NCBI GenBank assembly: GCA_907163375.1 | Contig: CAJQUW010008693.1 | Coordinates: 1-64,000, forward strand | DNA: 64,000 bases | Direction: 5' to 3' | From: Prostheceraeus crozeri | Lineage: Eukaryota; Platyhelminthes; Polycladida; Euryleptidae | Shown here: positions 6,167-63,190 of the stretch, piece after piece | How positions within the stretch are numbered: the first letter of the stretch is position 1 | Layout: each line of letters begins with the position of its first letter | Notes under the pieces: model-generated | Databases searched by the model: none | Told to the model about the DNA's origin: nothing | Seen by the model: only the letters and a program-made list of their open reading frames with translations | Made by a program: the position numbers and the translations under genes

Positions 6167-7670
6167 TGTTTATCATGCTTGGCATATCTGCTTTGATCCA
6201 TCAAATATAATAGATGAAATTTTAGAAAAATTGGTCACGATGCCATTGTCACAGACATGTACTGTACAAAGGGTTAGTGACAGGATTATAATCCACATCC
6301 TCACGTCATGTCTACTTGAAAAAGATGCCATGTTGCTGGACCATGGGGTCTGGTAGCCAAATGAAATTAGCGTGTTCATCACTGCCGTCTGACTCCAGTT
6401 TCAATCTGTTAAGTTAACGTTTGCCAGGTTGTCGGATAGATGAATGACACTTCCGCTTGATGGAAGATTAGCATATCCAAGAGTTGGCTCATGCATGTGG
6501 AAATAGACAGATGTCGGATGTTCAAGATTTTCAAATGTATGATTACTGCTTGTTGGTTACGGCAAAATAAGGTTACACTGCAATTCCAATTTAGTTTTTT
6601 ACAATTATAAATCTTTGAAATTTCCATATGTGTTCCCATGATGTGCACGTGGTTTATCCTTAGTTCAGGTATTTTCAGCGACTGAAAGAATTCGATCTAT
6701 CTACTGTGTGTTTATTATCCACCTGGTATGAGTAAAGTAGGTCAGTTGCAATGGAAACATTTTAATTCAACATTGTCTCTTCTTGAGGCACAAATAAGGT
6801 CTTTTCGAAGTTAGAGTGTGCTAACTAATCACGAACTACCTTTGTCGACATCTCTCAGCCTAATTACCATGGCTGGCTTTTTTACACTTTATTTATTCTA
6901 ATGAAATTGCAAATTCATTGTGGTTCTCTGATTGACAACATGTATTCTGAGTGGTAATAACCCTTTGTAAAAAGTTAGCCATGCGGTCTCAAAGCGGTTG
7001 AAAGGATGAAAACGCTCTCAATGCGCAATAGGCTTTGTCGTCTGATGCTTCTGTTTTTTGGGTTCTTTTGTCTTAAGGTTGTGACCGTGCTCCGGCTAAA
7101 CTATCATATTCTGGAATATTGTTTGTATTTTGCTGGTCATTTGAATTTATCTAGTTCCATTATTTGATCATTATGTTCTCTATGTTTGATTATTTTAATG
7201 TTGTGGTAGGCTTCGTCCTCACTAATACACCACCATTGGTTTCACTGATATCGTACAGTCACCAGTTGTTTCTTGTACGTTAGAATCAGGGTTTTATTGG
7301 AAGGGCAAGTTTTTGGACTCATTTGTGATCTAGTTCCTTTCACCGTTATCTTTTCTCCCCCCTCCTCATGGGTTGCAGGTTTAAGGTGTGACGCTAATCC
7401 AACGCATTCACGGTCCATACGGGCGTCAGGTAGTTCGAGGGTCCGAAAGTCCATTGGTAAGGCTTTGGGAGGCAGACCCGGTCAACTGCCAACCAACGCA
7501 TAATCACAATCAATACCGGTTTGCAGTGATGAAAACTGGAGAAGCATGATTAATTCGTTAATTGTTGATAAATGTTTCACGTCCTTCCATGGAGCAATTA
7601 AAATTAGTCATGATGCGCCCCATTTTATCATTTTATTCATCACTGCGTCGAAAACATTGAACAGTTGATT
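6167..7670. other. Unassigned AT-rich sequence
   Basis: Only short open frames without recognisable motifs. No repeat end, RNA gene or coding domain that I can support. A slightly GC-richer patch at 7340-7500 shows no known domain. Confidence 0.5.
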
Positions 7671-7673
7671 CAA

Positions 7674-7958
7674 CTATTGTACTTGAGTGTCATATCCGAC
7701 TCTTACTTTTGTAAAAATGTATGTATTATGGTTGCTTTTTGCATCACCTATGTCATAGTCTAAACTACGATCGGGGCATCTATTTATGTATTTGCGAGCA
7801 TCGGGCATAGTCCTACGGGCACGGCGATGTGCAATAATGACTTGATTGCGAATTAATATCCGGTCTGTCAGTGGACATGGTAGGGATTCATTGGGGCATG
7901 CATGGGACGTGGGCCTAATGTATGTCGGTAAACTCATTATACAATTGAATGTAGTCAC
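7674..7958 (-). pseudogene. Possible relic of a retrotransposon endonuclease C-terminal end
   Basis: A 94-codon minus-strand frame contains DRILIRNQVIIAHRRARRTM followed by PDARKY. This resembles the tail of LINE endonucleases, where an N-Q-I-D-H-type strand is followed by a basic segment and an R-G-A-D/S-D-H motif. The D and S-D-H catalytic residues are not visible, the neighbours give no support, and the match rests on one short stretch. It may be chance. Confidence 0.3.
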
Positions 7959-10135
7959 TGTCGAATTCTCTCACATCACACTATTTGAAGGCTAGACCTG
8001 AACCCATGCTAGCTGCAAGTTCCAGCTTTGTGTATAGCGAGGAGTCATTTGAAGTGAATCTCGACACATTCGTAATATAGCATTTGTAGTAGCGTTGATG
8101 CTGCTTAAGCGTGGTTGGTTTAGGCTAAATCATCACGACAGAAGGATTTTAACTTCTCTATGGATTATGATATTCTCTAGTTTTTGACTGGGTGAATTTA
8201 AAATGCATGCGTGAATTGTACGTTTGACGCGTAAACTTATGTTTTAGCATGTCATTGGGGGCAATGCCGACATCGAACTTCCCGACAGTGCAGTTTGTAT
8301 TTATTTCACGATCTCCAGATGTGAGAACGTCTGCGTTGCCAGCTTCCCCCCCCTAAAAAAACCCCCGGTTTCTCTGAAAACACCCAATGCTATTCTAGAG
8401 CGACAGCACTTGACAGGCGTCCACCCCAAAATTAAACATTGTGTTTTTGATTAAAAAGAACATTGAACGCTTGTTTTATGCACATGAACGAACGCGGAAG
8501 GTTGGTGATAGCTCATTGAGCGGTAAACCCGAAATGAAAGGGTCTTGAATAGGCTTGTGATCGGAAGATTGAACTAACGGAAAAATATGACCGTAGTCAG
8601 AAATCCCTTGTCAGATCATCACTGAGGTGCCTTCGGCCTACGCAACGGACATTCCTGCCCGTCCTGTCAGATAGGTATCGAACTTTCAGATATTCGTAGA
8701 GAGATAAGTACTACAAAGCTGGTGGTCATTCTGCCTCAAGGACAACCACTGGATCACATCCTTCCCCCACCGTGTGTCGCCCTGTTTAGTACTTACATCG
8801 GCCAACAGAGACTTAAGTCACGTCGATTCCTTATCCAGCCATGCCTCACGCTATGTCCACGGTTGTCCTTCGAAACCCGCCCTCGCGTGTAGCGATCGTG
8901 TCCTCACTGCGTCGCCTCTCCTCCGATCCTCGTGTGCCAAAGAATCCCCTTGCGCTCCTAACCCGGCCTCGATCTTCTGGCAAAACACTGGTGATGATAT
9001 TGAAACCGTCTCTGTTTATGGAGTAACTCGCACATCGGAGAGTCTCCCAACGTTGAGGCCACCACAAAGTTCGACTTCTTTGCAGATTCGGCCACTCAAT
9101 TACAATCAATCGTCACTATCATCGAGGACTGTCCCCTCTTCAAAGCTATGAGAAAGGGTGTCGCAGGTCTTTCGTTTGTCCGGATGATGATATCACCAGT
9201 AGGGCTCTTCCCCTAGAACTCTAATCCCCTTTTCCTCATATAATCGTCTGAATAGTGATTTTCTTTTTGCGCTAAAGGGTTTTTGTAGTGATTTGTTCAA
9301 ATAAAACGCTTTATAGATTTATACACCCATCGATAAGGGAGACAGACAGTTTTGAACATTCTTTGAGATGCAAATTAAAAGACAGGGACTCCTTAACTGA
9401 ATTTTGGGAAATATGCTGTTGCACAAACTCGGGTTAAAAACAACCCCCCCTTATTTTTTTCAATTTTGTCATCATTTGGATGCGATGGATGATTGCCAAT
9501 AATGAGGTCATGTCGGATCAGGAAAAACGATGGTCATGTCATGTCGTCATGACATTAGGAGTTCGAATCTCCAGTCTCATGTGACAGAGATTTTGGATGA
9601 TGCAACAGCTGACAGACATAGCTGCTAGCCTTAATGTTTAAAGGGAAAAAAGTGCATTCAAATAATCTAATGAAAATGCTAAAATATAATTAAGGTGTGT
9701 GTAATTTTATTCTGTCAATAAAGTCTAGTTAAGTTGCGTATGTTATTGCTATGCAGTGCTCGATTCTACAGGATGGCTGCCGAGGCATTATAACTTTTCT
9801 GGGTTCACGTGACATGTTGTGTCCTATAACGTAAGTATATATCAGCAGCGTTTGACATACTAAGTTTTTAATTTAACCATTAATGTGCTTGCATTTCGAT
9901 TTTATCAAATGAATGGTGTTGGAGAACCAGTACCAAATGATGAAATAAGCAATCAGATAGTTTAACCACAAGAAGAATAGTATTATACATATCTCCTGTG
10001 TCATTGTCACCTTGGCGATGCAATTTTCATAAATTAGCTCCGATGGATTCTGTGTCTGACATCAGTGTTCAGCCTTATTTATAGAGTATTTTCCGAGCTT
10101 ATCCATGGCCACTCCATGCTACGGCACTGATGAGG
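7959..10135. other. Unassigned region with a GC-richer island
   Basis: The stretch 8340-9180 is more GC-rich than the rest and holds overlapping open frames on both strands (125 codons plus at 8774-9151; 87 codons minus at 8846-9109), none with a domain I recognise. It may be part of another old mobile element. The remaining sequence shows nothing I can name. Confidence 0.4.
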
Positions 10136-11500: not shown

Positions 11501-11504
11501 ATGA

Positions 11505-13793
11505 ACATTGAGGTAAGTTAGATGTAGTAGATTTTTGTAGTTAGTTAGTAGTAGTAGTTAGTAGTAGATTTTTTAGATTTTTTAGATTTTAGATATAGTA
11601 GATTTTTTAAAGAGTGGGGTAGTTAAGGGGGGGGGGGGGGGGGGTAAGGATAAGGGGAAGGGGGATAGGGGGGGAAAGGGGGTGGTGTAGTGGGGGGAGG
11701 TAGAGAATATTTTAGGGACCTGGGGCTAATAAAGGGGGGGGGGGATTGAGAGGGGGGGCTAAAGGGTGGGTGAATAAGAAAAAATTATTGTTAGTAGATA
11801 GAGAGATAGAAGTTAGAGATTTTAGTTTAGTAGATAGATAGTAGTTATTAGATTAGATTAGTAGTAGTTGTTAGGTTAGTAGTAGAAGAGATTAGTAGGA
11901 GGATTTTTTAATAGTATAGATAGATTTAGTTAGTATTGTAGTAGTAGTTGTTTTAGTAGAGTAGTAGCGAAAAGATTAGATAGTTTTAGAGACGTTAGAT
12001 TAGTTTGAATAGTAGAATGATAGTGTGTAGTAGTTTTTTAGACGTAGATATAGTAGTTAGTCCTAGATTATAAGTAGTATTAGATAGATGTTGTTAGTTA
12101 GTAGAGTTAGATTAGGTTAGTGTAGGGTAGTAGATTTTAGATATTAGAGAGATTAGATTAGTAGTTGGGATTAGTTAGTAGTAGTTAGAGTCAGGGATTA
12201 GTAGATAGATATTGATATATTTTTAGAGTTAGTTTAGTAGAAGTTTAGAGATGTAGTTAGTAGTAGCTAGATTTAGTAGTTGAAGGATTTGTATTAGATT
12301 AGTAGTAGTAGAGGATAGTAGATTTTTAGAAAGTAGAGTAGAGATAGTAGAGATAGTATAGTAGATTAGTAGTTAGTAGTATGTAGGATTAGTAGTAGAG
12401 AGTAGATATTGTAGAGATTAGAAGATAGGTTAGTTAGATATTTAGTAGTATGATTGTAGGATTAGAAGTATAGTAGTAGTTAGATTTAGATTTAGTAGAT
12501 TAGAGTTAGATTTTGATAGTTAGATAGTTTAGGTTTAGAGTTTAGATTAGATTAGTTAGTTAGATAGATTTACGATAGATTTTAGTAGAGTTACGATTAG
12601 ATAATGTTATTGTGTTTAGATTAGATTAGTAGAATAGTAGAAGAGTGAGATATGTAGAGATTTTAGTTAGAGAGATAGATATAGTAGTATGTTTAGATTA
12701 GATAGAGAAGTAGATTAGTAGAAGTAGGTAGATTTTATAAGTAGTTAGTTAGATTTATTAGAGATTAGAGAGGATAGGTAGATTTGTAGATTAGAGTAGT
12801 AGTAGATTTTAGTTTTAGAAGTTTAGTAGTGTTTAGATAGATGAAGATAGTTGTTAGTAGTTGGTTAGATTAGTTGATTAGAGTTAGATAGATAGATTAG
12901 AGAGTTTACGATAGTAGTTAGGTAGTATAGTAGATTAGATTAGATTGAATTTGGTATAGAGATAGTAGTTAGTAAGTTAGTTATGTTAGATTGAGATAGA
13001 TTTTCTTAGTTAGATATTAGATTTATGATATTATTTAGATTAGTTGATCTAGTAGATTTCAGGATTAGTAGTATTCTGATAGTAGTTAGATTAGAGTTTA
13101 GAGTTGTGAGTAGTTAGAAGGTTGTAGAAGGTTAGTAGATTTTAGTAGTTTTTGATAGTAAGTAGAAGTTAGTTTAAAGTTAGATAGTAGTAGTTAGAGG
13201 TAGTTGTAGTAGTAGATTTGTAGATTAGAGACTAGTAGAAGTTATTAGTAGTGATAGATTAGATAGTTAGAGTAGTAGATGTTAGATTAGTAGTTTAGTT
13301 AGAGATTTGATAGTTTTAGATAGTAGTAGATGGATTAGTATATGTTTGTAGTAGTAGTAGATTAGGTAGAAGAGTAGTAGATTTAGATTAGGATAGAGAT
13401 TAGTATAGTAGTTAGATAGTAGTAGATAGTTGTAGTAGATACGATTTAGTTTGAGTAGATATAGGATTAGGATTAGTAGTTAAGTATAGTGGTAGATTAG
13501 ATTTTAGTTTTAGATTAGTAGTAGTTTGTAGATAGATAGTAGTTAGAGTTTAGTTAAGTAGTAGTAGTAGTAGTTAGTAGTAGATTTGATGATAGAGAGT
13601 TAGTAGATTATAGTAGTTTTGTTAGATTAGTAGATTAGATTAGCTAGAGGTAGAGTAGATAGTAGTAGTTATAGATAGATATAGATAGGTACGTTAGTTG
13701 AGTAGATTGTTAGTTTTTGATTTTAGTTGTAAGTAGTAGTAGTTCTAAGTGATTAGATATAGAGTTAGATTAGGATTAGTTAGATTAGTTAGC
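11505..13793. repeat. 2.3 kb cytosine-depleted TAG-rich degenerate tract with G runs
   Basis: The plus strand is almost entirely A, G and T: irregular mixtures of TAG, TTAG, GTAG and GATTTAG words. Cytosine appears only rarely (for example near 11968, 12062 and 12571). The beginning (about 11620-11770) is a cluster of G runs of 4 to 20, able in principle to form G-quadruplexes. There is no fixed period, so this is not a clean tandem array. Edges are sharp: ordinary sequence ends at GAACATTGAGGTAAG near 11510 and returns at CACTACATAAAA near 13791. Plus frames are full of TAG stops and no coding frame exists. It could be a decayed microsatellite or a sequencing or assembly artefact. Confidence 0.8.
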
Positions 13794-14540
13794 ACTACAT
13801 AAAAAAAATTAACCCGCAATCCGATGACCGGAGGGATGCAGTTACTGGAAATAATTGTTTGTGCGACCGCTCCTGAATATGGCAGTTTGATTAAAGCACT
13901 CATAGGATTTCAATTTCTGAGCTGAAAAAGTGCTCTGAACTTGGATTCTATTAGTAGAAGTTTCTATTAAATAATTGACTTGGGTTAAATTTTCAAATTC
14001 AGGATGGAATATAAAGACAACTTTACCCCTCTAAGGAAAATTGGATCTAGTCACATTTCCTTAAAAAAATGATACCCATCTAACGTTTAATTCATTCTTG
14101 ATGCAGAAAATTTTATAACCCGAGAGGATTTTCGTGAGAAATTAACTTAGGATGGGTTAGAAGCTTGAACACCAAAATTGAAGTGTGCAAATCCATTTTC
14201 AAACTCTCCACAGGATTCATACAACAAGTGTGTGGATGTTTTAACCGCAACAAACAAATTAGAAAACTACATTAAAACCCTTTGTGCCTAATACTGATGG
14301 ACCCCAAAAATATAATACATATGTCTGTTAGCTTTAAAAAAATTGTAGATCAGACACATGTTTGGTAACCCCGAAAAAGAGTAGTATTAACTTTGGAAAT
14401 TATCATAAAGCGACTTTATCTTTTACAAAGAGCCGTGAGCAGGAGAGGTGCCCTAGGATTCATTATTTGAAAATAGAAAAGTTGGATACCTCCAGGAATA
14501 ACGGAAAATAAGACCAAAAAATTTCTCGATATTGTACGTT
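13794..14540. other. Unassigned sequence
   Basis: Mixed AT-rich sequence without a recognisable frame, repeat end or RNA between the TAG-rich tract and the GAAAC hairpin at 14546. Confidence 0.5.
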
Positions 14541-14545
14541 TTTAT

Positions 14546-14582
14546 TTGCCAAACGTTTCGGACGTTCGTCCTTAGTCAAGGC
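14546..14582 (-). other. Hairpin GGAC-GAAC-GUCC followed by GAAACGUUUGGC
   Basis: On the minus strand CTAAGGACGAACGTCC is followed by GAAACGTTTGGC. The hairpin plus GAAAC resembles the stem II and GAAA part of hammerhead ribozymes found at retroelement ends. The expected CUGANGA box reads CUAAGGA, so a working ribozyme is unlikely. Probably the remnant of a Penelope-like or related 3' end. Confidence 0.35.
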
Positions 14583-14889
14583 ACAAGAGCAACTTCACAA
14601 ATGTATGGCCTTTGGAAGCACTTGCAATAGCTTTGGGAATACCTTTATCATTTGGAATAGTGTTGAAAGTTCGCGCTCGTCTCGCGCTCGCGCGATGTCG
14701 CATGCCATTCTGTGGAATTTGCATTGGAATGATTCAGTGGGACTTTTCAAATTCAGACTTTCATTCTCGGAGTAATGGACGAAATTGGGGGGGATTTTTA
14801 TTCAATTATTGTGACGATGATCAGTTTCCGAAAAATTGCTGACGAAGATAATGGGTTCTAAATTTCTTGCAATATACGAAGTACCTCAT

Positions 14890-16960
14890 AGAGTAGGTAA
14901 TATTAGGTAGAGTGTAGATAACACTCAGATTTATTAAATCCCCAATGTACTAGATACACTTTCGATTTCACTAAAACATGAACTTGACGCACGAAACTCC
15001 AGCAAACACATGTGTTGAGATATTACGAATTTTTGCACTTTTGGAGAAAAATGTATACTCGAATTTGACTTATTATGACAGCAATTACAAAAGAAAAGAA
15101 ATTTACATAAATCCCATATCATGATAAAACCTTGAGAGGGTAACATGGTTTATTACATTCAGCAATTCGATGGTCTTACCATTGCTCCTTAAAGCTCATG
15201 CACTTAGCTAAGATAGATTGTTTTCTTTAGCGTGATCATTTCACAAACTACCTGCCACTAGTAGATGAAAATATTTACGGAAAATTATGGCAAAAAATTG
15301 GATATAAAATTGGAAAATTAGATGGAAAATGTTGAAAGTTTTTGATTTTTTTGATAGGTCCCATAAATTTGAGCGCGGTCAACTGCCGAGCAGCTGCGTA
15401 CCAATAAATTGGGGTCTAAAGCGCTGATTTCATCATTATTGGGATTAAAGCGATCGTAGCAATGCGATTTTCGTCGCGGATTTTGAACATTCCTTGCCAC
15501 CGCGAGTGATTATAATGCTAGCATTTTTAATTATCACACAGACACCTGTTTAGGGATAATGTGAATATTGCTTTACAATGTTTTGTAGGGGGGTCCATAA
15601 TCATAAATTCATGGCAATGTGAAAGATCTTGGAGCAAAAATAAATTGTACGTTATTTATGCGAGTTACTAATGTTAGCTGCAAGTAGAACAAGCTTCAAT
15701 GCAGCGTTGATCATGGGTGATGCACAATTCTCCATAGTGTTGATGAACATGTGATGGAAGTTTAAGCCTAGACAGTCCCACGCACATGCATGAGCGACCA
15801 AATTGGAAGATATAAGACTGTGAACTCGTGAGAATATTTGGTAAACTAAAGACTATCTGTGATGAGTAATGATTAGGCTTCAATTCAGCGCATTGTCCGA
15901 TAGCTTCGTTGAGCACTACACATACTCGCCAGTTCTAGTTCAGGGGGGGATTTTTGGTTTGTTTCCCAAAGGGGGGGGGGGGGGGGAAAGATTTTAGTTT
16001 CCTACTCTCGAATTTCAGATTCTGCCCATGTGAATTGCAGGTTACTGATCCCGATGAATTGGGAGATCTCACGAGTTGAATTAGAAGATCTTTTCAAAGT
16101 GTTTTGCTTTGTGACAGATTATCTGTAAATTCGAGCTGTGGAGGAAATTCTGAAATCATACTAATGACTCTGAAAATTCATTTGGGAAAGATCTGAACAT
16201 GCCATGGTAAAAGTTTGCAAGTTCGGGTACACAAAGTTAACATGCAAGGATGATAGAAAAAGTTTTCGGACTTTGAGATTACAGATCGTCCTTTCAATTG
16301 ACTATAATAGAATGGTCTCCAAAACAAAGGAAAAAACGTCAATCACCGGAAAAATGAATTTCAAAATTTTCCATTTGCATCATACTGCCACTGAATCGAG
16401 CAAAATGCAATCATTATAGGAGAAAGTGTCTTTGAAGGTGTAAATGGTTTGTCGCACCATGTCCTAGTTCAGCACGATTCAGATTCAAGGATAAAGACGC
16501 TTTGCGCATCCATGAAAATATGCCGCTGATATTGAATTTAAAAAACAAAACATCTCAGCCAAGAAATCTTTTAGTTAGAGTTTCTCAAACTTTTCCTTGC
16601 AGACTTCCGAGGGCCGGGCATTATAATGCTACATAATGAAATTTCTCTTATCATCAGCTTAATTTCTGCTTTAATTATGATGTTGCTAGCAAATATTCAT
16701 TCCTTTGAGTATCCAACTTGTTTCACACTTACTGTGATAAAGATGACGTCATCTCGGTTAGTATATGAATACAGGACTAATTGAAAAAAATTATAGCTTG
16801 TTTAACTGCTTCAAATAATTTTTTGAACAGCAGGGACGTCAATTCTCCGCAAAAAAACTGACTCTTTTGATATAAAATTTTCACAGTGTATACAGATTAT
16901 TATTGAGTTCGCGACACTCTAAGTCTATGTTACTTACTTCTATGAAAGTACCTATTACCT
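14890..16960 (+). repeat. Dispersed repeat E, copy 2 (split by hAT-like element C)
   Basis: 14895-15259 aligns with 22330-22673 (shared TTAGGTAGAGTG, TTTATTAAATCCCCAAT, GCAATTCGATGG, GCGTGATCAT and CCTGCCACT). After the insert, 16385-16960 continues the same unit and aligns with 22665-23190 and 10140-10650. The unit has no visible coding content. Confidence 0.75.
15260..16384. mobile_element. hAT-like non-autonomous element, copy C (8-bp duplication CTGCCACT)
   Basis: Perfect 8-bp direct repeats CTGCCACT at 15252-15259 and 16385-16392 flank it. The left end AGTAGATGAAAATATTTACG and the right end AAAATTTTCCATTTGCATCATA match the terminal design of copies A and D, and the interior matches A in the same direction (GAGGATTTTGAACATTCC-like, AAAGATCTTGGAGCAAA-like). 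A G run of 14 lies at 15971-15985. The uninterrupted paralogous site is visible at 22666-22674 in repeat E copy 3. Confidence 0.85.
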
Positions 16961-26490: not shown

Positions 26491-28290
26491 CAGGGTGTTT
26501 CAGAAATGCTGGGCACAACTTGATGAATCATAATTCCCATTTATGCAGCCATTCGAACGAGGTCCATTTGAATCTATAGAAGTAGGAGTCACACTATGTC
26601 TATGCAAAAGTGAGGGACTCCGCTTCCATTAGAATTCGCTGCTAATTTGCTCAGACAATCAGCAAATATGACTGTTCATAGTTCTGCATTTTATACCGCT
26701 GTTTTAGTTGATTTTGAGCTATGGTTATGTTAGATAGGCTATTCATTCCATAATCAATTTCAATACTTGAATTGAATACTTGACCTCAAATCACAGTAAG
26801 TTTACAAGCATACTCAATTTCTATGATTTCAAATGTTAATACATTGTTTTCCGCATAAATTCAAACTGATATTCGTTCACTGATATATCGATTTCTTCAT
26901 TTTGCACTGTTAGTAAGTAAGAGTTTTAAAATACTCGCGTTATGGCTGAAGATGACAGACTTGAGCAGAAGATTAAGGCTGTACGTTTATATTCTCTTTC
27001 TCAAGATGCTGTTGAGGTTGAAAGACAACTTTTACGTCAATATGGAGAGAATGCAATCGATCGTAGAACGATTGGACGCATCAATAAACAGTTTGATAAA
27101 ACTGGTAGTGTTCAACCGAAAAAGCCTACCGGTAGACCACGGTCTATCACGACCGATGAAAACAAGGCAGTGTTGGTTGAGCTGCTTGTTGACAATGGTG
27201 CCGAGCCTATGTCAAGCCGGAAATTGTCAAATGCCTGTCATCTAAGCCATTCGTCCACTTACAGACTTCTCAAGGAACTGAAGTGCAAGCCGTATATTCC
27301 ACGCTTGATAAATGAATTGTCCGAAGACGACTTTGATCGCAGAGTTGAAACTTGCGACATCTTACTGGGTATGATGGATAGAGATCCCGAGTTCGCGAAT
27401 AACATCTTATGGTCTGATGAAACACAATTCAAACTTTCTGGAACAGTCAATCGACACAACTGTGTAATCTGGTCGACACAAAACCCTCAGTGCACTGTTG
27501 AAAGTAATGGTCAGGCCCCAGGCGTAATGGTATGGTGTAGCATTCGTTTGAGTGGAGTAGTTGGTCCTGTATTCATCGATGGAAATTTCAACGGTGAGAA
27601 ATATCTTGACTTGCTTCGTGAACATGTCTTCTCCATCAATGATGACAATATGTGGTTCATGCAAGATGGTTGTCCGGCACATTACGCCACATCAGTCAGG
27701 AGACACCTGGACCAGCACTTTAAAGAAAGATGGATTGGTCGTCGAGGTCATGTGGAGTGGGCCCCACGTTCTCCGGACCTTACACCTTGTGATTTTTTTA
27801 TGGGGCTTCCTCAAAGATAGAGTTTTTGCACGTCGACCTAGGAGTCTTCCAGACTTAAGGAGCTTTATCATCGAAGAAGTTCACAACATAACTCCAGAAC
27901 TGTGTCATAAAGTTTGCCAGTCCGTTTCTTCCCGATTTCGAGCGTGCATTGCCAAGGAAGGCCAACAGTTTGAACATGATCGATAACTTGTACTTTGACT
28001 ATGCTCTCATTGTTTTCTTGTTAAATGTCTATTATTTGCTTATACAAGAATAACTTTATCAAAGAAAAAAGGCTTTTTCATTTCCCGATTTAGTGGTTAA
28101 AATGATACTGGCCCTTATTATATAAGTTTGCTAAGATCTACAGGTGTACATGAATACATCGGCTATATAACATGTTTACATCAATATGAAGTTTTGCGAC
28201 TGTCAGGGCACTATTACGATGGTAAATATAGATAAAGATCATGATATAAAAATTTTTATGCAAAGTGCCCAGGATTTCTGAAACACTCTG
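26491..28290 (+). mobile_element. Tc1/mariner-superfamily DD41D (rosa-like) transposon, nearly complete
   Basis: 1800 bp bounded by 26-bp inverted repeats CAGGGTGTTTCAGAAATGCT... on the left and CAGAGTGTTTCAGAAATCCT... on the reverse of the right end, with TA on both sides (26489-26490, 28291-28292). It holds one transposase gene with a single visible break. It is the youngest-looking element in the window because its reading frame is almost intact and it interrupts another transposon. Confidence 0.9.
26942..27986 (+). pseudogene. DD41D (rosa-like) transposase, one frameshift
   Basis: A DDE/D transposase that would cut and paste the surrounding element at TA sites. The start is the ATG at 26942 (MAEDDRLEQKIKAVRLYSL). 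An N-terminal helix-turn-helix lies around residues 10-115. A GRPRSI hook follows at about 65-70. The first aspartate is in LWSDETQF (about residue 160), the second in FMQDGCPAHY (about 240) and the third in SPDLTPCDFF. Counting from the second to the third aspartate gives 41 intervening residues. The frame stops at 27820 because a run of seven T at 27793-27799 shifts it by one (net +1 or -2). The other frame continues WGFLKDRVFARRPRSLPDLR to a stop at 27986. Full length would be about 347 residues, usual for the family. Confidence 0.88.
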
Positions 28291-55170: not shown

Positions 55171-56568
55171 AAAGAGAGTCATCCTAAAAGTTCCTGTTTT
55201 TTTGTTTAATTCATAAAGTACGTCAGATATTACAACGTATTGATTCTGGTATGTCAGGCTGTGCATATTGATTGAAATTGGAACTGTTAATTGTTGTGAC
55301 TCGCGATCATTGCTTAGAAATTTAGTGGTTCGCAAGAACATCGCTCATTGTCTGACCGGAGTGTCATTTGATCATTGAAATGAATAGAGAAGAGATGCGA
55401 GAAAAAACTTTTGCAAAACTGACATTCGTCAGTCAATCAAATTTCATGTTCTTTTGAATAAGTCGCCAGTAGAAACGCATGGTATCCTACAAGAAGGTTT
55501 GCAAGAACATTGTCCTTCGTATGAGACTGTGAGGAAGTGGCACAATAGTTTCTGTGGTGGAACTGTGGACGTTCAAGATGGAGTCAGATCTGGTCGTCCG
55601 AGTACCGCTTGTGACGATGTTCATGTTGACCATGTCAGCTCACTACTCGAAGAAGACAACCGTTTAACATGTGAGGAGTCAGCGAACCAGGTGGGCATCA
55701 GTTCTTCTTCCATCCACCTCATCCTTACTGAGAAGTTGAAGAAACGGAAAGTGGCTGCCAAGTGGATTCCCCATCTGCTGAACAATCATCAATTGAGTGA
55801 CTGTGTACGGATTTGCTCTGCTCATCTCCGACGTTTCCGACGGAAAAGGAACAGCTTCTTGCATCGTATCATTGCTGGTGATGACACATGGGCCAGAAGT
55901 TTTGAGCCTGAGCTCAAGCGCCAGTAAGCTCAATGGATTGGCCATGACGGGTCATGACGACCCACGTCCAACAAAGGCAATCAGAAGTCCGTCCCGCAGC
56001 AAGTCAATGCACATTCCTTTTTTCGACGTTCATGGGCTCCTTATTGACCATGCTGTACCAACTGGCACAACTGTGAACGGAGAATATTACAAATGCTTTA
56101 TCCGCAATCATCTTCGACCGGCCATCCGTAGAAAAAGACCAGGTTTACTGGAAGAAGGTTCGATAATCCTCCATGACAATGCACCATCTCACACGAAAAG
56201 AGACGTGGTGCAACTTCTCAATGATGAGTACGACTGGGAGATCCTTCAGCATCCACCATACTCACCAGATTTATCACCGTGTGACTTTTACTTCTTCCCG
56301 TTGATGAAGAACGAACTTCGTGGTCGTCGATTTTCCACCGTGGAAGAAGTCAATCATGAATTTCACCGTGAATGTGTTGCCGGGCATCTGGTGGTTGCAG
56401 TGATGGTATTGACGGGCTGGTGAAATGCTGGAAGAAGTGTGTGGACCTGGAAGGACATTATACTGAGCAATGATACCCATGAGTGTTAAATAAAAGTAAT
56501 TTTGGATTACAGATGCGTATTTTTATTTTTTCATAATGCAATACAGAGAACTTTTAGGATGACCCTCG
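55171..56568 (+). mobile_element. Mariner element, nearly full length
   Basis: Ends GAGAGTCATCCTAAAAGTTC on the left and CGAGGGTCATCCTAAAAGTT on the reverse of the right, with TA at 55169-55170 and 56569-56570. About 1.4 kb. It carries one broken transposase on the plus strand. Confidence 0.85.
55381..56423 (+). pseudogene. Mariner transposase with frameshifts (DD35D spacing as read)
   Basis: The start MNREEMREK (55380) is out of frame with the following IKFHVLLNKSPVETHGI, so one shift lies in the first 60 bp. Next come CPSYETVRKWHNSF and SGRPST (helix-turn-helix and hook). IAGDDTWARSFEPELKRQ contains the first aspartate, then a stop at about 55925 and a shift. The second frame has FFDVHGLLIDHAVPTGTTVN, LHDNAPSHT (second aspartate) and YSPDLSPCDFYFF (third aspartate). 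I count 35 residues between the second and third aspartates, one more than the usual 34. A further disruption lies after FHRECV near 56370. Inactive. Confidence 0.85.
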
Positions 56569-57107
56569 TACATCTTACATTCCAAATTTTAGTGTCTGTC
56601 CACCTCATATCGTAGGTAATAACACAAGCACTGGTAATTGACATGCTCGATACGACAGTGATTACGAAAGGAACTGAAATTGAAGCCAACTGCACATCAA
56701 GCCAATGATACGCGACCGTATCTACTGTACATTGCCTGTCATGCCATAAAGATCGAACACCCATCAGCTACGAACACTCTCAGTTTGCTTGATTTTTCTG
56801 TAACCATGACCACTTCAAACAACCCTCAATTTGAATTCTACAGAAAGTCAGCAAGAAAGAATATTTTTGTCCATTATAGATCAAATCTATCAACCATAAC
56901 AAAATCTCAACTGAACGGTGTTCCAGTTTGCAAGTCTACAAAAAACATGAAAATGTATTCGAAAATATTCTCCTCATCAATGAATACCTCACACAAATGA
57001 TCAAATATTCTTCTAAGAATAACATAAAATTTAAGCGGAAAAATGACAATGAATTTATGTAGGCCTATTTTCCATTTCCTCACATATCTCACAAGTTAGA
57101 TAACCAA

Positions 57108-57285
57108 TTTATCAAATCTCAACAGATGTAACCACCACGAGACATGTTTCGGCCTGTTGAGCCTCATCAGTCGTGGGTAGGTTTGAACCAGCGACGTTGG
57201 AGCCACAGGACGTGCAAGCATACCCTCTAACCACAAGGCCACCGGACCATCTGTTGAGAGCGTGGATTAGCCAGGAAGGCACTGC
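57108..57285 (-). mobile_element. tRNA-derived SINE carrying a hammerhead ribozyme (12-bp duplication)
   Basis: Exact 12-bp direct repeats TTAGATAACCAA at 57096-57107 and 57286-57297 flank it, showing insertion by target-primed copying into the Penelope-like element. On the minus strand the 5' half is tRNA-like: GGTGGCCTTGTGGTTAGAGG (A box) and GCTGGTTCAAACC (B box). The 3' half is the hammerhead at 57135-57176, followed by TTACATCTGTTGAGATTTGA. Not a functional tRNA because no acceptor stem closes. The order (pol III promoter, ribozyme, tail) suggests a transcript that can cut itself. Confidence 0.82.
57132..57178 (-). ncRNA. Type I hammerhead ribozyme
   Basis: Minus-strand reading 5' to 3': CCACGA (stem I), CUGAUGA (core), GGC-UCAACAG-GCC (stem II and loop), GAA, ACAUGU (stem III, A15.1-U16.1 pair), C (position 17, cleavage site), UCGUGG (stem I return). 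All invariant core residues are present, stem I has six Watson-Crick pairs, stem II three G-C pairs, and stem III is the minimal self-complementary form seen in retroelement hammerheads. Chance occurrence of the whole arrangement is very unlikely. Activity in this copy is inferred, not shown. Confidence 0.85.
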
Positions 57286-57819
57286 TTAGATAACCAAATT
57301 AAAAGTGTCTTTCGACGAGAAAAAAATAAATGTTCGGCGAACAAGAAAAAGTAGAACACTAAGAAATGCACTCAAAACGAACTCACAACAAGTTCAACGC
57401 TGCAACTTTTTCGAATTGTCCTGTGCTTGACTCTAAGAAGTGTAAGAAGAAAAGTGTTTATCAGATCTCTTGCTCTAAATGCTACCAATTTTACATCGGC
57501 AGCACTGTGCGACTTTTCCATATTCGCTGCAAAGAGCATATGACAACTGCTGATTCGTCCATCAGAAAACATTTAAACAACTGTCAAACGAACAACATTA
57601 GGCCTATAACATCAATTCTAGCACGTGACCACGATGCGAGTAATCTTCGTCTAAGAGAAGCTTTTTACATCAACAAAATAAAACCAACAATTAACAACAA
57701 GCATGAACTGAACAGCTACAGAGATTTTCTCTTTTTCTGATACTTAGGATTCAAATTTTAGTTATGTACCACTCACTAACTTCTCAGTCAGGTCATTGTT
57801 TTCTATGCTACTGGTACTA

Positions 57820-62692: not shown

Positions 62693-63190
62693 CCTCAAGT
62701 TTCATGCCCACTCTGGAAACCAAATGGAGGTTGTTCCACATGTCCTAGGAAGTGTAAAAAAACAAATTTGAGAAAAATCTATCGAGCCCTTTTCTTTCTG
62801 CAGCTTTTTTGCACTTTTTTGCTTTTTTTGCTTTCATGTTATAATAGACTTTCCTTGAAATTATGTGCCCACTCTAGAAACTAAATGGAGATTGCTTAAT
62901 ATATGATAGGGAGTATAAAAAAGTAAATTTGAAAAATGTCTATCGAGCCCTTTTCTTTCAGCAGCTTTTTTGCACTTTTTTGCTTTTCCACATAATTGTT
63001 CTAATACATTTTCCTTGAAGTAATGTGCCCACTCTACAAACCAAATGCAAATTGCTTCACATGTCCTAGGAAATACTTTAAATGCAAATTGAAAATCATC
63101 TGTCGAGCCCTTTTTTCTTTCAGCAGCTGGTTTCCACTTTTTCGCTTTTTTGCATAATTGTCATAGCACGCTTTCCTCGAAATTATATGA
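62693..63190. repeat. Tandem repeat, three units of about 160 bp
   Basis: Units are anchored by GCCCACTCT at 62706, 62867 and 63027, giving periods of 161 and 160 bp. Each unit carries CTATCGAGCCCTTTTCTTTC, CAGCAGCTTTTTTGCAC and TTTCCTTGAAATTATGTGCC or a close variant. No spacers of different sequence and no coding frame. A short satellite block. Confidence 0.9.

Follow-up and report, generated by a model that had tools for sequence, protein, structure and literature searches.

The first 64,000 nucleotides of contig CAJQUW010008693.1 from the polyclad flatworm Prostheceraeus crozeri (GenBank assembly GCA_907163375.1), hereafter the window, contain a short element with a hammerhead ribozyme motif. 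The element is a 178-bp unit on the minus strand at 57108–57285, flanked by an exact 12-bp direct repeat, TTAGATAACCAA (57096–57107 and 57286–57297), and it combines a type I hammerhead with two sites that resemble the A and B boxes of RNA polymerase III (Pol III) promoters. The sequence supports one inserted unit carrying a complete hammerhead core, and this unit is probably mobile. We lean towards reading it as a non-autonomous member of the hammerhead-bearing retroelements of animals, standing halfway between a short interspersed element (SINE) and a retrozyme.

The inserted unit and its hammerhead

The boundaries, the core, helices I and II and the box-like sites can be read directly from the DNA. 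An earlier note on this stretch had taken a clean 12-bp duplication to mark one unit, and TTAGATAACCAA indeed borders 57108–57285 on both sides, as a target-site duplication (TSD) whose copy at 57096–57107 lies 3′, and whose copy at 57286–57297 lies 5′, of the element in the sense of transcription. Pairs of repeated 12-mers at spacings of 150–400 number 133 in the window, 46 of which lie outside a simple-repeat tract at 11–17 kb; when an array at 62.7–63.1 kb is also set aside, the pairs outside the tract reduce to three places: 29286, 41404 and the flanks of the element. The guanine-plus-cytosine (GC) content of the element is 52.8%, versus 37.8% for the window. As transcribed, the element begins with 26 nt, followed by the 5′ arm of an inverted repeat (57248–57259), an A-box-like site, a B box, the hammerhead, the 3′ arm (57117–57128) and a short end. 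The arms, which were absent from the earlier note, match perfectly over 12 nt and enclose the promoter-like boxes and the ribozyme; they are paired in the predicted fold, closing head and ribozyme into a rod.

The hammerhead, including an outer helix I, spans 57130–57183 (minus strand, as are all its parts) and overlaps the B box by 4 nt. The full type I motif with a 6-bp stem I and C17 that had been claimed earlier is present, with all core positions kept: C3–A9 as CUGANGA (CTGATGA, 57164–57170), G12–A14 as GAA (57148–57150), A15.1, U16.1, and H17 as C17 at 57141, 3′ of which cleavage is predicted. Helix I consists of 6 bp, CCACGA/TCGTGG (57171–57176 with 57135–57140), and is open-ended, as in type I. 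Beyond it lies a TAC/T internal loop and then a possible 4-bp outer helix, AACC/GGTT (57180–57183 with 57130–57133); because this AACC lies in the B box, four B-box bases can double as helix I. Helix II and its loop, GGC-TCAACAG-GCC (57151–57163), provide three GGC/GCC pairs, or four with a possible U-G. Helix III (ACATGT, 57142–57147), which the earlier note had not described, has at most one realistic pair, A15.1-U16.1, topped by a palindromic CAUG tetraloop. Helix/loop II shares the 8-mer CTCAACAG (57154–57161) with the 5′ inverted-repeat arm (57251–57258), and the 3′ arm could therefore pair with either.

A descriptor of the core that asked for at least 4 pairs in helix I, 3 in helix II and 2 in helix III, with a 2-nt loop permitted, matched once in the 64 kb, at the hammerhead of the element, and a second descriptor with other settings likewise matched once. 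The second helix III pair of the descriptor is discounted here because it would close a 2-nt loop. Among Rfam models, Hammerhead_HH9, an amniote intronic hammerhead, is matched over its entire length (1–77) with 29.7 bits and an E-value of 0.0022 over the whole window, the lowest among the six Rfam rows up to E 1. This score is below the gathering score of 52, so that the motif is not a member by Rfam's rule, and no Rfam hammerhead family matches at the gathering threshold. A hammerhead-like string within unrelated repeat DNA might arise by chance: among 300 random 64-kb sequences drawn from a first-order Markov model, 3 contained a match whose helix I had 6 or more pairs, and a single copy was examined here. 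What makes the feature convincing is that the duplication, the boxes on the ribozyme's strand and the covariance-model match coincide, and we regard a chance origin as very improbable.

Box-like sites and the question of a linear SINE

The earlier note had also proposed a Pol III-type promoter. Its B box, GGTTCAAACC (57180–57189), is present on the minus strand, where GTTCAAACC fits GWTCRANNC exactly and the box departs from the longer form GGTTCGANNCC at two positions; B boxes of such quality number eight over both strands of the window, the element's included. Its A-box string, GTGGTTAGAGG (57224–57234, minus strand), is likewise there, but TGGCCTTGTGG (57231–57241, same strand), with one mismatch to the consensus TRGYNNARNGG, is better placed, and there are two further one-mismatch candidates, beginning at positions 37 and 53 of the element. 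The A-to-B spacing of 53 nt is Pol III-like and the pair lies on the ribozyme's strand. When the element was shuffled 5000 times, an A and B pair of such quality appeared 33 times, for which reason the pair is suggestive only.

Similarly, the description of the element as a tRNA-derived SINE stands in part. The boxes, their Pol III-like spacing and the 12-bp TSD agree with it, but a tRNA head is not seen: Rfam gave no tRNA match up to E 10 (401 and 88 bases searched), and ARAGORN in its bacterial setting detected none. With the two boxes as its basis, a tRNA origin is plausible rather than demonstrated, and the head could represent either an ancient promoter of tRNA descent or just two boxes.

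The element could also move as a plain linear SINE, in which a long interspersed element (LINE) would copy the Pol III transcript while the hammerhead trims it or splits head from tail, with no circles formed. The 53-nt spacing of the two boxes, both on the strand of the ribozyme, and the lone monomer in the window are in line with this, and the 12-bp duplication is of the kind produced by LINE machinery. The expected start of transcription argues against it. Pol III initiates approximately 20 nt ahead of the A box, which places the start at element position 25, near the inverted repeat and inside the insert rather than at its end, leaving ~24 nt of insert upstream, although this estimate depends on the A box chosen. 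A circular or multimeric template would thus account for these bases more easily than a simple Pol III transcript; read-through from outside or use of a different A box would also include them. Furthermore, the 3′ end of the element has no poly(A), A-rich or simple-repeat tail, TTTT is absent from the element (the first one lies 65 nt downstream), tRNA models find nothing, and a cut at 57141 would presumably take off the 3′ end needed for priming. On these grounds, we consider a plain linear SINE unlikely.

Folding, predicted cleavage and the proposed cycle

The full element is predicted to fold to −63.3 kcal/mol (z −2.55), a value reached by 2 of 200 shuffles, and in this fold the pair probabilities are 0.62–0.95 for helix I and 0.81–0.99 for helix II (~0.99 for three pairs). 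The design of helix III is shared with HHR_Amex1 of the axolotl, which is described in PMC7229834 with one helix III pair and a palindromic tetraloop and is akin to the hammerheads of amphibian satellite DNA; the remainder of the element differs. In the same source, a monomeric HHR_Amex1 repeat was cut by 6% in an hour and dimeric constructs performed much better. Owing to this resemblance, the hammerhead is expected to be weak as a single motif; self-cutting could possibly separate head from tail, yet helix III suggests weak single-motif action.

For the retroelement reading that we favour, we infer transcription, cleavage, dimerisation, circle formation and a partner enzyme, in the following cycle. 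The element would be transcribed from its internal Pol III-like boxes or through read-through. Probably in a pair with another copy, joined via its palindromic helix III, the hammerhead would cut 3′ of C17 (57141), leaving a 2′,3′-cyclic phosphate and a 5′-hydroxyl. Multimeric or tandem transcripts would in this way be resolved into 178-nt units, which a host tRNA ligase could close into circles. A reverse transcriptase from another element, either a LINE or a Penelope-like element, would then copy the RNA and insert it with a 12-bp duplication. A more specific version would make this a hammerhead SINE family outside schistosomes with promoter and ribozyme fused (the B box sharing its 3′ portion with the outer strand of helix I), a ribozyme that works as a dimer, multimers as the sole substrate cut to 178-nt circles, and a Penelope-like partner; we consider this version unlikely.

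Several results weigh against the retroelement reading. In single-strand prediction, the helix III pair has a probability of 0.0, and C3 to G8 are unpaired with probabilities of 0.30–0.65, the core being partly paired, with loop III. When the 54-nt motif is folded by itself, a hammerhead conformation with helix I, its outer extension and helix II comes to −13.1 kcal/mol, versus −16.3 kcal/mol for the best fold; tertiary contacts are left out of account in these energies. A cofold of two motifs, considered as support for a dimer, was rejected as such; it gave a long duplex and no hammerhead dimer. The 64-kb window holds neither a second copy of the element nor a tandem copy: animal retrozymes occur in tandem repeats, according to PMC7229834, whereas this element is one monomer. 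The same source places retrozyme GC content below 50% in its text and below 45% in a legend, and the element, at 52.8%, exceeds both limits. It also has box-like sites, whereas the literature consulted reports no A or B boxes in animal hammerhead repeats save the schistosome tRNA-Gln. Lastly, a specific hammerhead pattern had no exact match in prokaryotic genome contigs or viral contigs, and blastn found no relatives among plasmids or phages, negatives that carry little weight because these collections are prokaryotic or viral.

Part of this evidence would suit a passenger hammerhead, i.e. an element that moves without its ribozyme, of which this copy, with its minimal helix III, is inactive. 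In its favour are a helix III that cannot exceed 1 bp, the Rfam score under the gathering threshold, the partly paired core and the 6% cut in an hour by a single axolotl motif of like design (PMC7229834). The invariant residues and the 6-bp helix I are intact, however, and the axolotl motifs cut well as dimeric constructs (same source), so that we judge a passenger role distinctly improbable. The helix III folding results, together with the loss of an open-frame argument (below), slightly lowered our confidence in the favoured reading and raised that in a passenger hammerhead.

Relatives, surroundings and the rest of the window

A short retroelement with a hammerhead is a known kind, in schistosomes and in other animals, and the element is a further example. 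The earlier note had suggested that the tRNA-head plus hammerhead layout was undescribed, which as a kind is contradicted by Sm-alpha of Schistosoma mansoni, a SINE derived from tRNA-Gln-TTG that bears hammerheads (passages of PMC2770079). In this source, its copy number is estimated at >10,000, and 2,342 of the 2,368 tRNA-Gln-like genes or pseudogenes called in S. mansoni are SINEs. Both Sm-alpha and Sj-alpha resemble the element in being short and SINE-like and in joining a Pol III-type sequence to a hammerhead (PMC2770079, PMC4918200, in part), and the hammerheads of Schistosoma elements are type I (PMC6155905, in part), as is this one. Sm-alpha has a tRNA-Gln, whereas a tRNA was undetected here, and the two were compared by description only. 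In literature searches and the open-access texts consulted, no boxed hammerhead element outside schistosomes was found, which is no proof of absence; this particular family may be undescribed.

Among other animals, PMC7229834 describes retrozymes of 170–400 nt in coral, mussel and axolotl, with analogous repeats in further phyla, insects and crustaceans among them. These carry type I hammerheads and TSDs (if present) of >4 bp, are non-coding with strong self-pairing, and are circularised far more efficiently by RtcB than by self-ligation. The element agrees with such animal retrozymes lacking long terminal repeats in its type I hammerhead, its 178-bp unit and its 12-bp TSD. Passages of PMC4918200 describe animal hammerhead repeats as being without primer sites, except for a full tRNA-Gln in schistosomes, and report 15-bp duplications for Nematostella repeats and a tick example in a figure legend; the paper names tick repeats of Argas. 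Aedes, Nematostella and Xenopus have hammerheads in their interspersed repeats (passages of PMC3088659), and a supplementary legend lists a dimeric Aedes form with a self-paired loop III; the likeness to the element is that of a hammerhead inside an interspersed repeat.

According to excerpts of PMC7761336, animal retrozymes could count as a novel SINE family, and their autonomous mover has not been deduced from retrozyme sequence; Penelope-like elements are named as strong candidate partners in PMC7229834. An element this short that bears a hammerhead together with Pol III-like boxes would link retrozymes to SINEs, and would provide a small system for asking whether circles serve as template. 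Should its copies prove scarce or degenerate, it would be an ordinary further case alongside Sm-alpha.

A looser pattern, combining a B box with a hammerhead, hit at least 120 stretches of viral contigs. Applied to the 120 stretches listed, the descriptor gave 18 hammerhead-like matches in 10 loci, with helix III of 3–6 pairs, and two of these loci (L071 and L103) contain the identical two matches. One viral contig (IMGVR_UViG_3300031366_000001, locus L027) has six descriptor-defined hammerhead-like motifs in ~3.3 kb (reverse complement, 6271–9574).

Beside the insertion, downstream on the plus strand and not part of the element, lies a relic open reading frame (ORF) with a GIY-YIG domain (57363–57740; PF01541, 22.1 bits against a cut-off of 22.6, E 0.00018). 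We suspect here the remains of a Penelope-like element that had decayed and that the insertion split, a reading based on motif order and unconfirmed by any search: no candidate homologue was found for this flank, and solved structures and Pfam gave weak, chance-like matches. Hammerheads of Penelope-like elements are type I and minimal, as in this element, and the insertion site may be a Penelope relic; in contrast to them, no second hammerhead is present in the 64-kb window. A 33-codon frame across the emptied site was rejected as support, and the open-frame argument was dropped, because 516 of 629 control positions (55–60 kb) have a frame as long. Upstream of the insertion region, a probable mariner-like transposase relic occupies two frames at 55388–56423, with HTH_48 of Mos1 below cut-off.

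Elsewhere, the window also holds a reverse-transcriptase ORF, for which a search gave 1211 proteins; the names among the 120 listed are those of bacterial metagenome-assembled genomes, generic ones and one Diaphorina citri, and they point to no taxon. It further holds a long transposase-like open frame of 296 amino acids at 26930–27820, with DDE_3, HTH_32 and DUF4817 all below their cut-offs. At 11501–13700, ~2 kb of the plus strand is nearly free of C (between 11501 and 13500, each 500 bases hold 3–7 C) and is built of irregular TTAG/GTAGTAG/GATTAG words, with a GC skew of 0.416 for 12001–16000. At 62705–63183, a 161-bp unit is present in three tandem copies.
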